A stretch of 54,693 nt of DNA from assembly GCA_030594645.1 (NCBI GenBank), contig JAUVEU010000013.1, positions 1-54,693 on the forward strand, written 5' to 3'. The notes below the pieces were generated by a model. It ran no database searches. It was not told where the DNA came from and was given only the letters and a program-made list of their open reading frames with translations. This DNA is from Candidatus Aegiribacteria sp. (GTDB lineage: Bacteria > Fermentibacterota > Fermentibacteria > Fermentibacterales > JCC-6). The translations under genes and the position numbers were made by a program. Shown one piece after another: positions 48,459 to 54,693 of the stretch; position 1 is the stretch's first letter; every line of letters starts with the position of its first letter.

Positions 48459-48741
48459 CCAGGCCGGGCTTACCTTTCTGACCCTTATTAGTACATTATC
48501 ACTCTATGGGAAATATAAATATCTGAAAACTATTCAATTCCGATCAGATTTACCACCTTGCTTAAGGTATAGTCAGCGAAACTGATTACTGTACGATTGA
48601 TAATCATGCAATCACAGTATTGTCTTTCTCGATTATGACATAAATACCATAAAGGTGAACTCCGCAAACTATAGACTGAGAGTCAGAGCATTATGTACTT
48701 AAATCGGATAGGTGCCCCTGTTAATGGTGTAGAGCCAAGAA
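48459..48741. other. Gene-free spacer before the first HTH element
   Basis: About 280 bases without a credible ORF or RNA gene. It ends at the conserved leader of repeat copy A. Nothing else recognised. Confidence 0.4.
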
Positions 48742-48870
48742 ATACCACACAACCTACTGTCATTTTTGTAAATATGTGTTCTCAGTATTTGCGCTGATAA
48801 GGCGGTTTCTTCTGATAAGTTGAAGAAGTGTGGTACGTCCCCTAGGTTTCCTACTTTGTTTTACTGGTAC
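48742..48870 (+). repeat. HTH-element repeat, copy A (leader plus 54-bp core)
   Basis: Core 48817-48870 (AAGTTGAAGAAGTGTGGTAC...TTTTACTGGTAC) is repeated at 51249-51302 and 54640-54693. This copy differs from the others at one position (CCTAGG for CCTGGG). The 75 bases before it (ATACCACACAACC... to GGTTTCTTCTGAT) match copy C at roughly 87%. ATACCACAC at 48742 can pair with GTGTGGTAC at 48829, so the unit may fold as a hairpin. The core starts with the TTG codon that opens the following HTH reading frame. Confidence 0.85.
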
Positions 48871-49323
48871 ACCGGACTTGTGTCCAGTCGAACTCGCGCA
48901 AAGCACACATATCCTGTCCTTATAGTGCGTCCTGATCTATTGAAAGTAAAACCTAAAACCAAGAAATACCGGAATCCTGTCATGTACGCTCAGGAGCTTC
49001 GTGATGAGATGGTCCGTGATAACCTCACCAGGAAGCAGCTAGCAGAACGGCATGGGATTTCGTCTGATAGGATAACTCAGTGGCTATGTTTGCTAAAGCT
49101 TCCTGAAGAGATGAAGAGAACGATAAGGGCTCTTGGGAACCATTTGGATAGGCCGGCAATAACAGAGAGATCTCTACGGAAAATGAGAAGAAACAAAAAG
49201 CCGACGAACCCTCAGAGGCTCCGTTTTCAAGTTCATCAGCGTGATTTCAATCGAATTAAAATACAAACTACAGTGGAACCCTCCGAAACCAGATCACCCT
49301 TACCCAAGAACTTGCTGAGCTGA
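48820..49323 (+). CDS. ParB/KorB-like HTH protein, element copy A
   Basis: Frame runs from TTG 48820 inside the repeat core. The core codes KKCGTSPRFPTLFYWYT, followed by a variable 35-residue stretch and then a strongly conserved HTH: YRNPVMYAQELRDEMVRDNL, TRKQLAERHGISSDRITQWL (helix-turn-helix) and LLKLPEE, ending in ITERSLRKMRR. The pattern is that of ParB/Spo0J-like DNA-binding domains. The paralogue at 51252 is identical at 39 of 46 residues over the HTH core. The true start is uncertain; ATG 48984 would give only the HTH domain. After residue ~130 the frame drifts, and other frames look coding. Confidence 0.6.
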   Translation: MKKCGTSPRFPTLFYWYTGLVSSRTRAKHTYPVLIVRPDLLKVKPKTKKYRNPVMYAQELRDEMVRDNLTRKQLAERHGISSDRITQWLCLLKLPEEMKRTIRALGNHLDRPAITERSLRKMRRNKKPTNPQRLRFQVHQRDFNRIKIQTTVEPSETRSPLPKNLLS

Positions 49324-49391
49324 TGAAGCGGTGGGAAGATTTCCAGACCGAATTAGCAAAAAGGTCTGGTTCTTCTAAAGCGTCGGACTAG
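49240..49391 (+). pseudogene. Decayed 3' extension of the HTH gene, copy A
   Basis: Beyond the conserved HTH two other frames look coding in turn: one reads SVISIELKYKLQWNPPKPDHPY, then a second reads TLTQELAELMKRWEDFQTEL ending at TAG 49389-49391. This pattern suggests a longer C-terminal domain broken by frameshifts. The family is not recognised. Confidence 0.3.
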
Positions 49392-49580
49392 CCAAATTCG
49401 TGATTCCTGCTCTAGTGAAGTTGATACGCCAAACGTGCGTCAAATAGAGCTGAATCACAATAAGCACAATATCCTGTGGTTATGCGCGGTCTGTTGCCTA
49501 TATCTTGTGGTAGAAGTAACGTCGATCAAATAACAGTCAAATAACGAGCAAATGAACCCTGCTTCACCGTATCTGCGTTG

Positions 49581-51050
49581 TTAAGCCCAGAATGGAACGT
49601 AACTTGCATGCCGTCTTGACTCACTTTCCGGGTTATAGGAGTGGATCAAGTCTGCCTCAATAGTATCTTTTATCACACGAGAGACCTGGGCAAGGTTCTT
49701 CTTCTCAATACCGAATCGTTTCCGCAACGTTGTGTTGGTCATCTGTTTTCGCTGCACATGCTGCAGACAGGCATGAAGGTAGCATGCTCGGACGCGGTCG
49801 GATTTGTCCATGTCTGCGAAGGTCTTGTGAGCAAATAGAACTGCCCGGGTGTGGCCACCGACCACTTCGAACAGTGGGGCAGGCAACTGGGCAAACTCGG
49901 TCTCGAACACAACCTTATCCACACCACTACCTCGCTCTTCGCAAATACCTATTCGCCGCAAGAAAGAAGCAAGAGCTTCATTGCGCGACTGGGGTGGCGT
50001 ATCCAGGAAGCGCATCGTATCCACTAGTGGTTGTCCTGGGTTTGTAATCTCCAATCTACTGTCGAAGATTTCGACCATCGGCCCGGTGCCGGTTATAGTG
50101 AAATCCTGGTGAATGATGACATTGGCCACCAACTCACGAATAGCCAATTCTGGGTACATCGGAATGGTCTTCCGAAAAGCCTCGCCGATCACCTCGCTCT
50201 CGGGCAGCATGTCTTTAAGAAAACCAATTATACCTTCGAATCCGACTGCATAACCCTTATGGCCTTGATATTCGCGTTTCGTTCGAACCCGACCGTCGCC
50301 GTCGTACTCAATAACCCGTAGCGCTTTTCGCTCAAGATGTCGAAAACGCGACAGATCTGATGCGAAAAGGATTGCACCCAGGTTTAGAATATCCCATTGT
50401 CCACATTCACGGGTTTGAATCATGTGGTCTTCGCTTAACCGAGCAAGAATTGCATCACGGTTTTCAGGAAGGGGTACATCCAGTAGCCTGAAATAGGATG
50501 GATAGTCCAGCAATCGCAGGACATCTGTACCACTGACAGACTCTTCCGCGACCTGCTGTTCAAACGGAGTTGTATCGAAAACGCGCCAGAGAACGCGTTC
50601 CTTCTCCTGAAAATCCTTCAGCTTCTTCTTATAGGAACCCACCCGGATGTATTCGATCCCCTTAAACTGCACCGGCTGATGATTCGCACGGGGGATCTCA
50701 ATCATAGAGATTTGTTTGCTGTTAACCTCGAATTCGATGAACCTGAAATGAATCCGAGGGGTGAGTAAATACAGCAGCCAGTTCTCTAACTCTTCGTTGC
50801 CCTTCTTGGCTTGGGATGGCTTGAATGTTGTACCGATCACATCATGTGTTGCATCGTACACTCCCCATACAAGATAGGCATTTGCCTTACCGTATAGAGC
50901 AGCAGAATTAGCTAGTGCTGAGATGTACTCACCGATCTCCACAGTATTGGCATTGTCGCACTTGAACTCTACCCACTCTGTTTCCTTTGGTAACTGGCAA
51001 AGTTCATGCAACAAACCTGCAAGAAAAACGGGGTTATCATTTTGTATCAC
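49581..51050 (-). CDS. Schlafen AlbA_2 / ATP-binding regulator-like protein
   Basis: Protein of 489 residues. The N-terminal AlbA_2 domain (about 15-165): ETEWVEFKCDNANTVEIGEYISALANSAAL, AYLVWGVYDATHDVIGTTF and IEYIRVGSYKKKLKDF. A linker follows, then a GHKL-type ATPase (HATPase_c_4): YPELAIRELVANVIIHQDF, MVEIFDSRLEITNPG and ICEERGSGVDKVVFE. The C-terminus has a winged-helix-like LRKRFGIEKKNLAQVSRVIKD. These proteins occur as accessory regulators and near anti-phage genes. It is bracketed by copies A and B of the HTH repeat, opposite in strand to both. No partner gene is next to it. Confidence 0.85.
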   Translation of the reverse strand: MIQNDNPVFLAGLLHELCQLPKETEWVEFKCDNANTVEIGEYISALANSAALYGKANAYLVWGVYDATHDVIGTTFKPSQAKKGNEELENWLLYLLTPRIHFRFIEFEVNSKQISMIEIPRANHQPVQFKGIEYIRVGSYKKKLKDFQEKERVLWRVFDTTPFEQQVAEESVSGTDVLRLLDYPSYFRLLDVPLPENRDAILARLSEDHMIQTRECGQWDILNLGAILFASDLSRFRHLERKALRVIEYDGDGRVRTKREYQGHKGYAVGFEGIIGFLKDMLPESEVIGEAFRKTIPMYPELAIRELVANVIIHQDFTITGTGPMVEIFDSRLEITNPGQPLVDTMRFLDTPPQSRNEALASFLRRIGICEERGSGVDKVVFETEFAQLPAPLFEVVGGHTRAVLFAHKTFADMDKSDRVRACYLHACLQHVQRKQMTNTTLRKRFGIEKKNLAQVSRVIKDTIEADLIHSYNPESESRRHASYVPFWA

Positions 51051-51248
51051 TAATGCCCTCCATGACAGCCTTTTCGGCAGAATTTGAAATAGGAACCTTG
51101 ATTATTCACTTTCTGTAACTGTTTCCCTAAACAGTCTATATGCTCTTTTCTATATCTGCTTATTCACTTGAAACTTATGATACCGCTGTCAACAGTAACC
51201 AGTCAAGGTCTCTATCAGATGAGGAGCTTCGTTAATGGCGTGAAGCAT

Positions 51249-51302
51249 AAGTTGAAGAAGTGTGGTACGTCCCCTGGGTTTCCTACTTTGTTTTACTGGT
51301 AC
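51249..51302 (+). repeat. 54-bp core repeat, copy B
   Basis: Identical to copy C over all 54 bases and to copy A at 53. Before it, GTTAATGGCGTGAAGC resembles the GTTAATGGTGTAGAGC at 48720, but the ~75-bp leader seen in A and C is absent, as if deleted. The core again opens the HTH frame (TTG 51252). Confidence 0.85.
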
Positions 51303-51662
51303 ACCAACCCAATGACCATACGAACCCTTTTTGCTCCTGTTATTCTGCTGAAATCTTCGTTCATTTGTGCTAATAGAGTGAAACCCGCTATGAAGATCTA
51401 TCGTAATCCTGTGATCTACGCTCAAGAACTGCATGAAGAGATGATCCGTGATGACTTGACCAGAAAGCAGCTTGCTGAAAGACAGGGCGTCAGCTCAGAC
51501 CGGATAACACAGTGGCTTTGTCTGCTGAAACTTCCCAAAGAAAAGCTTAATGAGATAGAAGCGCTGGGTGATTATTGGAGCAGGCAGATGGTCACGGAAA
51601 GGGAGTTACGTAAGATCAGAAGGAGTTTGGGCCAGAAGAACAAAGCAATTACTTATAATTAG
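51252..51662 (+). CDS. ParB/KorB-like HTH protein, element copy B
   Basis: Paralogue of the copy A gene, about 136 residues from TTG 51252. Order and spacing are the same: core-encoded KKCGTSPGFPTLFYWYT, exactly 35 variable residues, then YRNPVIYAQELHEEMIRDDL, TRKQLAERQGVSSDRITQWL and LLKLPKEKLNEIEALG, with VTERELRKIRR. Between A and B the HTH core (46 residues) keeps 39 identities while about a quarter of the bases differ, mostly silent, so the protein is under selection. ATG 51390 (MKIYRNP) is an alternative start. The frame ends cleanly with no extra 3' domain. Confidence 0.65.
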   Translation: MKKCGTSPGFPTLFYWYTNPMTIRTLFAPVILLKSSFICANRVKPAMKIYRNPVIYAQELHEEMIRDDLTRKQLAERQGVSSDRITQWLCLLKLPKEKLNEIEALGDYWSRQMVTERELRKIRRSLGQKNKAITYN

Positions 51663-51702
51663 TAGAATATTTACCAAATACCAGATAACTGGTTCTGCAG
51701 GA

Positions 51703-54267
51703 TCAATAATCACTGACTTGATTTAGATTAAGGATATAGATAAAACCACCAGCGGAATATGCTATGTTCTGTCCATCATCTGACAAATAGCAGAAAAGCA
51801 TATCATTACAACCATGATGCCTGACAGGTGATAACCACAGAACCATACCTTTTTTATCAACAAGCACATACCGTCTGGGAGTACCCTGATCAAGGTAGAA
51901 TAGAGATGAACCATTATCAGCAAGATCACACCCTATTCTTAAAGACCAGGTATCATTCTTCGTATCAGTTTCTCGCTCAATCTCATGTTCAAAAGTGATA
52001 GCTCCACTCGGAAGTTCTCTGATAATGTATTTGTAAGTATCTCCGTATACATCCTCAGTAAGAAAATAGCTTACATAACTTCCATTTGGAGATAATCTTC
52101 TAGCCCTGTTGATCAATTCGCTACCATGCCAGTGATGCAGCAGTTCGCCTGTCTGACCACTGTAAATGAACACCCCCGAAAAACCTTCCCCTCTCATTAT
52201 TACAGAGATATTTTCATCAGTAATAGTTTTTCCCATAGATGCTTCAGATTCTGTAAGAGGAACTAAGGTTAAAACCCTTCCTTCCTCATTCATGATCACC
52301 AGACATAGTTCATCCTGATGCTTTCCCATCAGACAGATTCGAGAACCATCAGGAGACGTATAGTTTTCCGCATATGCAAAAAATTCAACAATGTCAGAAA
52401 AGGCAGCATGAACTAATTCCATTTTGTCGTTGAAGAGGTTTAATCTTATTGGATTTGGTGACATAGGGTAACTATCAAGTCGTGCATATCTTCCATCGTT
52501 TGAAATATGTCCCAGAGGATGAGAGTTACCTACTGTAATGCGAAGCTCTGTTGATACATAGTATGGATCCAGGTATTCTCTTTGCGGGCTTGGATCAAAT
52601 CGGATAGTATCTCCGGTTTCAGTATTGAGAAGTACTGCGTCGCCTCCTCTATGTTTGAATCCATATGCATCGAAGGCTATTACATACTTTCCATTTTCAG
52701 AAAAGGTGCAATGAACAGTCTGAAGGCCAAGTTCGAATGATGAAGGTTCGCTATTCTCTTCTAATACAACTACTTTCTCATGGTATACAAGAACAACCCT
52801 CCAATCATTTCTGCCATCTGAATCATCGAAAAAGACTCTCGCCTTTACTAATCCTGTCCCTGTAAGTTCTGGATGGCCCAGTTCCGATATATCGATAACA
52901 GTTCTATCAAACTCATAAGCCGCAGGTAACCATTCATTTTCAATACTAACTGTTCCTTCAAGTATCTCCTCAAGACACAACTCATCGATTCTCGGATCGG
53001 AGTTGGCTGTACTGACTTCAACAGAACCTATTGGACTGAAGTTTGTTGAATCAAGGCTTATGACTCGACCAGAAATACCAGGCAGATAGCAGGTTATCTG
53101 TTCTGTTTCTCTTGGTAGACTAACTCTGTATGTACTGTCAGAAATTCGATCTGTCGGAACGAATTTTCTTTCATGGTACACCGATAAGCCATCAATATCT
53201 TCAGATGAACCAGCTGATAATCGAATATTGAGGTCTATGAGTTCATCAGAAGTATCTGTAGAAACCGTATCCCAATGGAACCTGGCAAAATCAGCGTAGG
53301 GTATTCGAAAATCCAGGTTCACTGTTGAATCAGCCAGTATTCTTAAGCCTCGGGCTAATAAGGAATTGTATACATCTCCGCGAGCAGCCAGCATATATGT
53401 TCCGGGAATAAGGAATAAAGTGTACTCACCAAGGGAATCAGTAATACAAACAAATTCCGTATCAACATATCTAATACCATATCTACCGCTGGAATCAGCC
53501 CTTAATACGCGCAATTCTTCTACAATAGTTACTCTATATCCAGGCAGGGGGGCGCCACTATCAGCACTATATACGTGCCCGGTAACAGCTCCGTATGAAC
53601 CAGAATCAAACATACTCACAAATACATCATAGATCTTTTCTCTCCAGCAGTGAGTTGAGGAATCATGTGTCACAGTGTCCAACAAAGGGTCAACAATCAC
53701 AAACGGATCACTCCACATTTCTACATACTCATCTAATTCCGAACCTCTACTGGAAGATACAATCCTGATCTGGTAATCAATACCGGGAGGATATCGATCC
53801 AGCCGATCGCTTGCATCAAATCTGGGAAAACGTGATCCTCTTTGTGAATACCAGTGATTATTAAGACTGTTCAAATCCACAGGGGGTAACATCGTACCTG
53901 GAATGGGAGGAAGAATATTATAGATAAACTCTCCATTCTGATACAACTCTATCTTGCAATACCAGAAAGGACTATCACAATGATAACGTACTGAGTCTAC
54001 GCAATGGATACTACCAGCACTTGAAAGTGATGCCCCTTGCCAGGTTACGATAGCAGAGTCTCCCACCATCCAAATTGTTGAGGTGCAAGGTTGAAGGATC
54101 CTCGGTTCAGCTTCAGCTAGACGGAAGATTTTATAGATATGGTCTGGTATTATTCCGTAAAATTCATGGAAATTTTCAGACGTAACATAGACGTCTTCAA
54201 AGCCGCTATCACCGAAACATATTGATGTTACGCAGATTAGAAATAGAAATTTATATACATTCAACAA
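51703..54267 (-). CDS. Large secreted protein: Kre9-like, carboxypeptidase-regulatory and WD-like domains
   Basis: Signal peptide MLNVYKFLFLICVTSICFG, then about residues 45-215 a Ser-Thr-rich/KNH-like binding domain (STIWMVGDSAIVTWQG, CKIELYQNGEFIYNI, YQIRIVSSSRG...EYVEMWSDPFVI). A carboxypeptidase-regulatory-like fold (about 235-330: GAVTGHVYSADSGAPLPGYRVTI, CITDSLGEYTLFLIPGTYMLAARGD) follows. The C-terminal half (about 480-850) has propeller-like blades (FSENGKYVIAFDAYG, ISNDGRYARLDSYP, SPNGSYVSYFLTED, LSDDGQNIAYSAGGFIYIL). No T9SS sorting motif is seen at the end, so export is probably by Sec to the periplasm or outer surface. Function unknown. AT-richer than the other genes. Confidence 0.65.
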   Translation of the reverse strand: MLNVYKFLFLICVTSICFGDSGFEDVYVTSENFHEFYGIIPDHIYKIFRLAEAEPRILQPCTSTIWMVGDSAIVTWQGASLSSAGSIHCVDSVRYHCDSPFWYCKIELYQNGEFIYNILPPIPGTMLPPVDLNSLNNHWYSQRGSRFPRFDASDRLDRYPPGIDYQIRIVSSSRGSELDEYVEMWSDPFVIVDPLLDTVTHDSSTHCWREKIYDVFVSMFDSGSYGAVTGHVYSADSGAPLPGYRVTIVEELRVLRADSSGRYGIRYVDTEFVCITDSLGEYTLFLIPGTYMLAARGDVYNSLLARGLRILADSTVNLDFRIPYADFARFHWDTVSTDTSDELIDLNIRLSAGSSEDIDGLSVYHERKFVPTDRISDSTYRVSLPRETEQITCYLPGISGRVISLDSTNFSPIGSVEVSTANSDPRIDELCLEEILEGTVSIENEWLPAAYEFDRTVIDISELGHPELTGTGLVKARVFFDDSDGRNDWRVVLVYHEKVVVLEENSEPSSFELGLQTVHCTFSENGKYVIAFDAYGFKHRGGDAVLLNTETGDTIRFDPSPQREYLDPYYVSTELRITVGNSHPLGHISNDGRYARLDSYPMSPNPIRLNLFNDKMELVHAAFSDIVEFFAYAENYTSPDGSRICLMGKHQDELCLVIMNEEGRVLTLVPLTESEASMGKTITDENISVIMRGEGFSGVFIYSGQTGELLHHWHGSELINRARRLSPNGSYVSYFLTEDVYGDTYKYIIRELPSGAITFEHEIERETDTKNDTWSLRIGCDLADNGSSLFYLDQGTPRRYVLVDKKGMVLWLSPVRHHGCNDMLFCYLSDDGQNIAYSAGGFIYILNLNQVSDY

Positions 54268-54564
54268 ATTTTATTCCCCCCGAAGCAATAGGAAACTTTA
54301 TTCAATGCCATCGACAACACCGCTTTGAACAACCTATGGCTTTTCCTAGCAAGCCGATTTTTCAGTCTTATGTAAGAATACTGAGTCTAATCCTGTCTGG
54401 TCAATCCCTTAAGAATAGAATTAACTCTGTAGAAAAGTAATGAATACCCTGTTACTGGTACACTTTCCAGGGCTTACTTCGACTCATTATCGCTCGCTCA
54501 GGATAAATTTTGCTTTTACTGGCTTGTTGATGAAATGAGTGAATTGCTTTCGTAAGTTGAAGAA
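54268..54564. other. Spacer with partial repeat remnants
   Basis: No gene seen. TTACTGGTACAC near 54453 matches the end of the 54-bp core (TTTTACTGGTAC), and AAGTTGAAGAA at 54554 matches its start, so fragments of earlier repeat copies may be present. The promoter of the 854-residue protein must lie here. Confidence 0.4.
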
Positions 54565-54693
54565 ATACCGTACAACCTGCTATCATTTTTGAAAATATGT
54601 GATCTCAGTATTTGCGCTGATAGTGCGGTTTTTTCTGTTAAGTTGAAGAAGTGTGGTACGTCCCCTGGGTTTCCTACTTTGTTTTACTGGTAC
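54565..54693 (+). repeat. HTH-element repeat, copy C (leader plus 54-bp core, ends at window edge)
   Basis: Leader 54565-54639 matches copy A (about 87%), then the 54-bp core 54640-54693 matches copy B exactly. The window stops on the last base of the core (ACTGGTAC), as expected if assembly broke in a multi-copy repeat or if the window was cut there. An HTH gene probably follows outside. Confidence 0.85.

Follow-up and report, generated by a model that had tools for sequence, protein, structure and literature searches.

In tRNA-targeting genomic islands, the tRNA 3' end serves as attB, direct repeats are found and elements accrete in tandem, and tRNA genes are also targeted by the archaeal SSV1/pTN3/pT26-2-type integrases. 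Integrons and integrase-less arrays show another organization, in which many small mobile cassettes lie in one orientation and are accompanied by few recombinases. The SSV1/pTN3/pT26-2-type enzymes are suicidal tyrosine integrases: attP is located inside the integrase gene, two gene pieces, Int(N) and Int(C), are left at the two ends of the element, and chimeras can arise (PMC8371274). This 2021 review on tyrosine recombinases states that self-disrupting recombinases are exclusively archaeal, and it describes the fragments of the split integrases as inactive and excision as dependent on an intact integrase (PMC8371274). In the integration-dependent immunity of mycobacteriophages, attP lies in the repressor gene, integration removes the 3' end of the coding gene, and tandem prophages carry recomposed genes (PMC9934374). 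Here, we analyzed 54,693 nucleotides of DNA from Candidatus Aegiribacteria sp. (Fermentibacterota), called the window throughout this paper, which constitute the entire contig C10 (JAUVEU010000013.1) of a 3.07-Mb draft genome in 158 contigs (GCA_030594645.1). Two tandem cassettes at its right end each begin with an open reading frame for a helix-turn-helix (HTH) domain, and these frames very probably are the severed C-terminal pieces (IntC) of a serine integrase gene that contains attP and is cut in two at tRNA 3' ends when mobile elements of Fermentibacterota integrate. What the comparison of genomes shows in favor of this proposal is a full-length gene, junctions between recombinase bodies and tRNAs, IntC fragments in frame, a candidate attP inverted repeat, an empty site, and the pairing of halves in tandem.

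In the proposed mechanism, the mobile elements would encode a large serine recombinase with attP inside its own gene, and crossover would occur within the codons ...|TGG-YRC..., which are identical to the antisense 3' end (CCA plus acceptor stem) of tRNA-Arg(ACG) or tRNA-Asn(GTT). Because attP would lie inside the recombinase gene, integration would cut this gene. The body, comprising the catalytic, recombinase and zinc-ribbon/coiled-coil parts, would be joined to the antisense tRNA, which would supply a short tail and a stop codon, and the C-terminal HTH domain would come to lie at the element's other end, fused to the former tRNA flank. Repeated integration at one tRNA would produce a tandem array with one IntC per element, and the window would contain two such elements, both body-less.

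The full-length gene was recognized from one HTH match that sits in a 668-codon frame. Its product, P0002 (654 aa), contains a Resolvase (PF00239, 67.4 bits) and a Recombinase domain (PF07508, 42.6 bits), both above cut-off, followed by HTH_ParB (32.1 bits) at residues 581-633, and is thus predicted to be a large serine recombinase with the HTH as its C-terminus. The R-x-S motif with the catalytic serine of serine recombinases, RVS with S14 in P0002, occurs in 9 of the 10 proteins aligned, all but P0001, which does not contain that N-terminal part. In a fold search with Foldseek, serine integrases including PhiC31 and Bxb1 ranked on top (best E 1.1e-19), with whole-chain TM-scores of only about 0.2, and the AlphaFold model has a mean pLDDT of 72.6 and a pTM of 0.35, with low values at residues 539-654, where essentially one sequence is available. 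The CcrB, CcrC and XisF profiles matched far under cut-off. Among the matches listed for phages (15 of 280 records) and plasmids (15 of 39), identities were 22.7-28.0% and the matching parts ended at residue 538 or earlier, short of the HTH; no relatives of P0002 were found in viral contigs by one single-protein scan, which detects close relatives only.

Recombinase bodies, searched at E <= 1e-20, gave 10 matches in 7 of the 36 genomes of the family, a truncated body in genome G021 falling outside this limit. Eight of them read in frame without a stop into an antisense tRNA, five into tRNA-Asn(GTT) (L166 in the window genome, L168, L170, L172, and L174) and three into tRNA-Arg(ACG) (L169, L171, and L173), and they stop after 13 or 14 tRNA-encoded residues, over the anticodon region. 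The other two are P0002, which is intact, and L167, which is followed by the HTH in another frame. At E <= 1e-10, five HTH segments of the window genome (alignment A1) had counterparts in 34 of the 42 phylum genomes, with 142 matches in total, some of which are two pieces of one broken copy; 136 of these are within the 36 family genomes. In a second collection, 47 of 52 HTH loci carried Fermentibacteria-type names (Ca. Aegiribacteria, Sabulitectum, Fermentibacteria, and Hyd24-12, the last of which is presumed here to belong to the same phylum), and five carried other names. Fragments very close to those of Aegiribacteria were also seen in metagenome-assembled genomes that bear names of other phyla, L095, L103 (Sphaerochaetaceae) and L092 (Dehalococcoidia), possibly as a result of misbinned contigs or else of transfer. 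IntC copies occur in same-strand series, such as eight at a spacing of 1.3-2.8 kb on a 16.4-kb contig (G007:C18) and five at 1.8-4.6 kb on another (G033:C2), and in all 25 listed matches that share a contig with a tRNA (15 contigs, pairs compiled by hand) the fragment lies on the 3' side of the tRNA in antisense orientation.

The last ~25 bases of a body are related as an inverted repeat to the first ~30 bases of an IntC fragment. Each of the 10 body ends had IntC starts as its best partners, with the top five always at one fixed offset and scores of 12-17, and in 9 of 10 cases the score exceeded all 40 shuffles. As controls, 42 other tRNA left halves were used, a set from which nine known or suspected bodies and any left half under 45 bases had been removed; two of the controls, L188 (21) and L215 (13), scored high at the same offset and probably are body remnants, and the rest scored 11 or less. 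The symmetry centre falls between bases 5 and 6 of TGGYRC, so that the putative central dinucleotide would be GC (Asn) or AC (Arg). To judge from the matching bases, the inverted arms are specific to each element: the body on contig C3 of the window genome matches its nearest IntC at 18 of 25 bases and the next IntC at 9 of 25. The right arm of P0002 agrees with a body at tRNA-Asn 29 kb away in 18 of 25 positions and with the left half of P0002 itself in 7 of 25, and P0002 is therefore best read as a tandem-integration hybrid in which the frame has been restored.

Occupied and empty sites can be compared between relatives. In G021, an insert of 4,178 bp extends from an IntC to a body|tRNA-Arg junction, and in G024 the same flank lies directly on the tRNA; the flanks align over 696 bp on the left and 3,899 bp on the right at 91-92%, and the two alignments overlap by 9 bp, TGGCACGCC. 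The left flank of the first fragment of an array in G025 is 86% identical over 1,499 bp to a tRNA-Asn flank in G028, up to TGG, after which IntC follows in one genome and tRNA-Asn in the other. A region of the window that encodes a Schlafen-type protein (49204-51281) has a 95.7% identical counterpart in G006. There, tRNA-Arg is reached 30 bp further on and cassette B is therefore absent; since the last 15-30 bp differ, this junction is not clean.

In the window, cassette A (48865-51296) and cassette B (51297-54687) lie in tandem; features are on the + strand unless stated otherwise. IntC-A (48865-49323) has 152 codons from the junction TGG to the stop, shares 48% identity with residues 574-649 of P0002 in an alignment of 77 aa, and matches HTH_ParB with 26.5 bits (cut-off 22.6). 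IntC-B (51297-51662) has 121 codons from TGG to the stop and is 52% identical over 77 aa to residues 573-649, with an HTH_ParB score of 21.9 bits, slightly below the same cut-off. An earlier model-made note on this DNA (the sequence-only reading) had drawn attention to three nearly identical copies of a 54-bp core next to these frames, one of them without the leader that precedes the other two, and both observations are confirmed. Core copy A (48817-48870) is the left half of junction A (flank, then TGG), copy B (51249-51302) is both the right end of cassette A and the left half of junction B, and copy C (54640-54693) ends the contig; A/B and A/C agree at 53 of 54 bases and B/C at 54 of 54, and chance is excluded for repeats of such length and identity. 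Copies A and C are the final parts of 134-bp repeats (48737-48870 and 54560-54693) that are 92% identical, whereas only ~56 bp of the repeat are present at B.

The right end of the contig overlaps exactly, over 141 bp, with the end of contig C36, and past the overlap C36 goes on into a complete tRNA-Arg(ACG) in antisense (C36:16209-16285, ARAGORN), which makes core copy C the immediate 3' flank of this tRNA. TGGTAC, the last six bases of the core, is the antisense of the tRNA-Arg end GTACCA; copies A and B have the same left half and TGGTAC, and then continue as an open frame into the HTH instead of the tRNA. The TGG at the 3' end of the core is thus a junction with different DNA on either side, and the core does not end a conserved unit: it is the DNA left of the junction, namely the tRNA-Arg 3' flank and, in copies B and C, a cassette's right end. 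Portions of 34-35 bp of the core adjoin tRNA-Arg in G003 and G006 as well. The idea of a mobile element with the core as a recombination site is supported, TGGTAC being the tRNA 3' end at which site-specific recombination appears to have happened. The supposed link between core and HTH gene fared differently when 93 HTH fragments with an assignable junction were surveyed. The full core precedes only the window's two, and one further fragment has a 34-bp portion of it on its left; the other 90 of 93 are without it, and therefore core and HTH are not linked by descent. It is the junction TGG that links them.

As the sequence-only reading had stated, the two HTH segments of the window follow the core in the same frame and at equal distance. 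From core end to the motif YRNP this distance is 32 codons, and the linker DNA is identical at 36 of 96 positions. Its description of a largely silent divergence was also accurate: the HTH core of A and B retains 39 of 46 residues and 104 of 138 bases (75%), and with synonymous sites saturated (pS 0.77, pN 0.21) the base changes are largely silent. This saturation indicates that IntC-A and IntC-B come from old, separate recombinase lineages. The junction TGG (W), the first codon of the HTH side, is in frame in 87 of the 93 fragments, where chance would give one third; it mostly lies 22 or 27 codons ahead of the HTH model, and 70 of the 87 in-frame fragments are open through the HTH end. Median dN/dS values of the HTH were 0.13 (69 pairs) and 0.17 (86 pairs). 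This constraint reflects at least the time that the fragments spent within whole genes, and IntC may or may not be expressed.

Several observations weigh against the split-integrase proposal. The body end of L170 scores 12 in the inverted-repeat comparison, under its best shuffle (14). Just one full-length recombinase was found and, as it is a tandem hybrid, the free circular form has never been seen. The window array is body-less, and P0001, the single body detected in the window genome, does not include the catalytic N-terminal part; all genomes compared are drafts. Between TGG and HTH, the linker is at most slightly constrained at the protein level, with a median dN/dS of 0.42 in the 22-codon class and of 2.2 in the 27-codon class, which mixes different arm types and is of doubtful alignment. 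Finally, simple attP x attB integration would not predict that the core, or tRNA flank, recurs from one junction to the next.

One alternative, which we consider unlikely but by no means remote, is that ordinary homologous recombination or duplication, acting on the 54-134-bp repeats, enlarged the window array, and not site-specific insertion of cassettes. The presence of the core at all three junctions with at most one mismatch fits this explanation. So do tRNA-flank copies of 183 and 107 bp at later junctions of one array in G025, one of them 95% identical to the flank in G032, and the 38 of 93 fragments whose left half resembles that of another fragment up to TGG. However, the homologies end at TGG, the saturated synonymous sites mean that neither IntC-A nor IntC-B is a recent copy of the other, and in G006 cassette B is not beside tRNA-Arg. 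Repeat recombination may well explain how the core was copied. It is possible that the core was copied through homologous import of a flank-plus-tRNA segment after integration, or through duplication via repeats. Among the 93 fragments, 22 show homology between their left half and a tRNA 3' flank that reaches to within 6 bases of TGG.

A second alternative is that the HTH frames are independent small regulators, e.g., directionality factors or repressors, located beside attP, and that the fused recombinase is secondary. Start codons are present downstream of TGG, and the low dN/dS of the HTH, the copies that remain open to its end and the weakly constrained linker would all suit a small protein that is expressed. 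Nevertheless, this explanation is improbable, for the frame is retained back to TGG in nearly all copies, one inverted repeat is common to body and HTH, and in 8 of 10 bodies the open frame runs exactly through this junction codon; moreover, the DNA left of TGG is unlike that of any other fragment in 55 of 93 cases, and therefore no common upstream start can serve the IntC copies. ParB-parS-like partition or silencing, in which the HTH protein would bind the core as had been suggested, can be dismissed as extremely improbable: although the HTH_ParB profile matches and Noc/ParB DNA-binding domains are the best, albeit weak, Foldseek matches (E 0.02) of an HTH model from 50 fragments, the open reading frames have no Pfam match to a ParB N-terminal domain, the N-terminal part of P0002 is a recombinase, the HTH corresponds to a recombinase C-terminus, 90 of 93 fragments have no core beside them, and the inverted repeat at the junction lies in the recombinase gene, outside the 54-bp core.

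A structured RNA leader, the other explanation once offered for the core, was rejected. The pairing of ATACCACAC with GTGTGGTAC is limited to copy A, copy C having ATACCGTAC, and folding was not clearly better than that of shuffles, with z values for copies A and C of -1.2 and -0.1 on the + strand and of -0.8 and -0.3 on the - strand. Part of the core, the 26-bp motif AAGTTGAAGAAGTGTGGTACGTCCCY, is repeated in its own right at dispersed sites, namely at 48817-48842, 51249-51274 and 54640-54665 and at ~13 other places of genome G000 (L021, L026, L031-L041). A 17-bp part of it occurs with <=3 mismatches at 19 places, one of which is core copy C counted again on C36, compared with 8 for the reversed pattern, and 17 of the 19 have <=2 mismatches. 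A mirrored ATCAACTT is present near some copies.

Left of cassette A, a 31-bp sequence (48706-48736) occurs once in the window against 0 expected and represents the end of an ISL3-family insertion sequence (IS). In some relatives it comes after a transposase tail (36 bits to PF01610 DDE_Tnp_ISL3, cut-off 23), and no transposase frame >100 aa was found next to it in the loci examined. This "leader", common to many HTH loci, was considered as an att site and rejected, being the IS end. In relatives, several IntC and tRNA junctions have the same IS end directly on their left, which gives the impression that such sites are preferred by the IS.

The cargo of cassette A is a protein of 489 aa with Schlafen AlbA_2 and HATPase_c_4 domains according to profile matches (49581-51050, - strand), and that of cassette B is an 854-aa protein with a carboxypeptidase-regulatory-like domain (51703-54267, - strand). 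In a relative of cassette A (G006:C203, L235), the Schlafen region is kept and only ~32 bp of a B-type fragment start match at the left; therefore, the fragment seems dispensable for keeping the cassette. Other cassettes (L142, L145, L057, L058, and L236) carry cargo of surface and conflict type: several have secreted proteins with a C-terminal sorting tail (beta-propeller, FG-GAP), and Fic proteins, XRE-type pairs, patatin-like proteins and IS3-like transposases were also seen. CRISPR-like direct repeats with a 61-bp period are present on an array contig (G033:C3, L143:21-191).

If the gene is split as proposed, the full-length enzyme would be made solely from the circular or tandem form, and body-less cassettes would be moved in trans. 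The IntC fragments (136) far outnumber the bodies (10), counts obtained with different queries and thresholds, and most cassettes would therefore need help in trans if they are still mobile. Loss of the HTH domain would change the activity or direction of the recombinase and, because the catalytic parts remain in the body, may act as a switch without inactivating the enzyme. We tentatively suggest, as a possibility somewhat short of even, that integration acts as a switch: the full-length enzyme, present only in the circular element, would integrate, the tRNA-tailed body of the integrated element would no longer integrate or would only excise, and tandem integration would regenerate full-length hybrids with new arm combinations. 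Such a switch, if true, would be a form of directionality control for serine integrases by gene splitting and, in addition, an engine that mixes recombinase domains.

The order Resolvase, Recombinase and zinc/coiled-coil parts is that of large serine recombinases such as PhiC31, Bxb1, the Listeria LSR and CcrB, and the R-x-S motif and a candidate attP with inverted arms round a putative central dinucleotide agree with this class. Unlike these enzymes, the present ones have an extra C-terminal ParB-like HTH, an attP apparently within the gene, and tRNA 3' ends as targets. A ParB-type HTH is shared with ParB-parS systems (above cut-off in IntC-A and P0002, just below it in IntC-B), and the N-terminal ParB domain is absent. 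As in tRNA-targeting islands, the tRNA 3' end appears as attB, with direct repeats and tandem accretion, and a relative has the empty site (G021/G024), but here the left end of each element is formed by part of the recombinase gene. Integron cassette arrays are similar in their numerous small cassettes of one orientation with few recombinases; in contrast to them, the att sites are at tRNAs and IntC fragments are present. As in integration-dependent immunity, a coding gene would lose its 3' end upon integration, and in contrast to it, the split gene is that of the recombinase itself and not of a repressor. With the archaeal SSV-type integrases, the locus would share an attP in the integrase gene, a gene split upon integration with pieces at two ends, possible chimeras, and a tRNA target, seen in 8 of 10 bodies. 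It differs in that the enzyme is a bacterial large serine recombinase and not a tyrosine recombinase, with the catalytic body left whole and only the C-terminal HTH domain cut off. In a literature search of openly licensed PMC papers, no split serine integrase, nor any split integrase in bacteria, was found. What would be new is the archaeal split-integrase logic with an unrelated enzyme family, in another domain of life and with another part lost. If this serine-family bacterial version is real, the self-splitting strategy arose twice with unrelated enzymes, and the survival of the catalytic body makes it possible to ask by experiment whether an integrase splits its gene in order to switch function through loss of a domain. 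The system would also offer serine integrases with defined tRNA targets and an attP readable from the gene, and would explain many ParB-like HTH genes of the phylum as position markers of past insertions.

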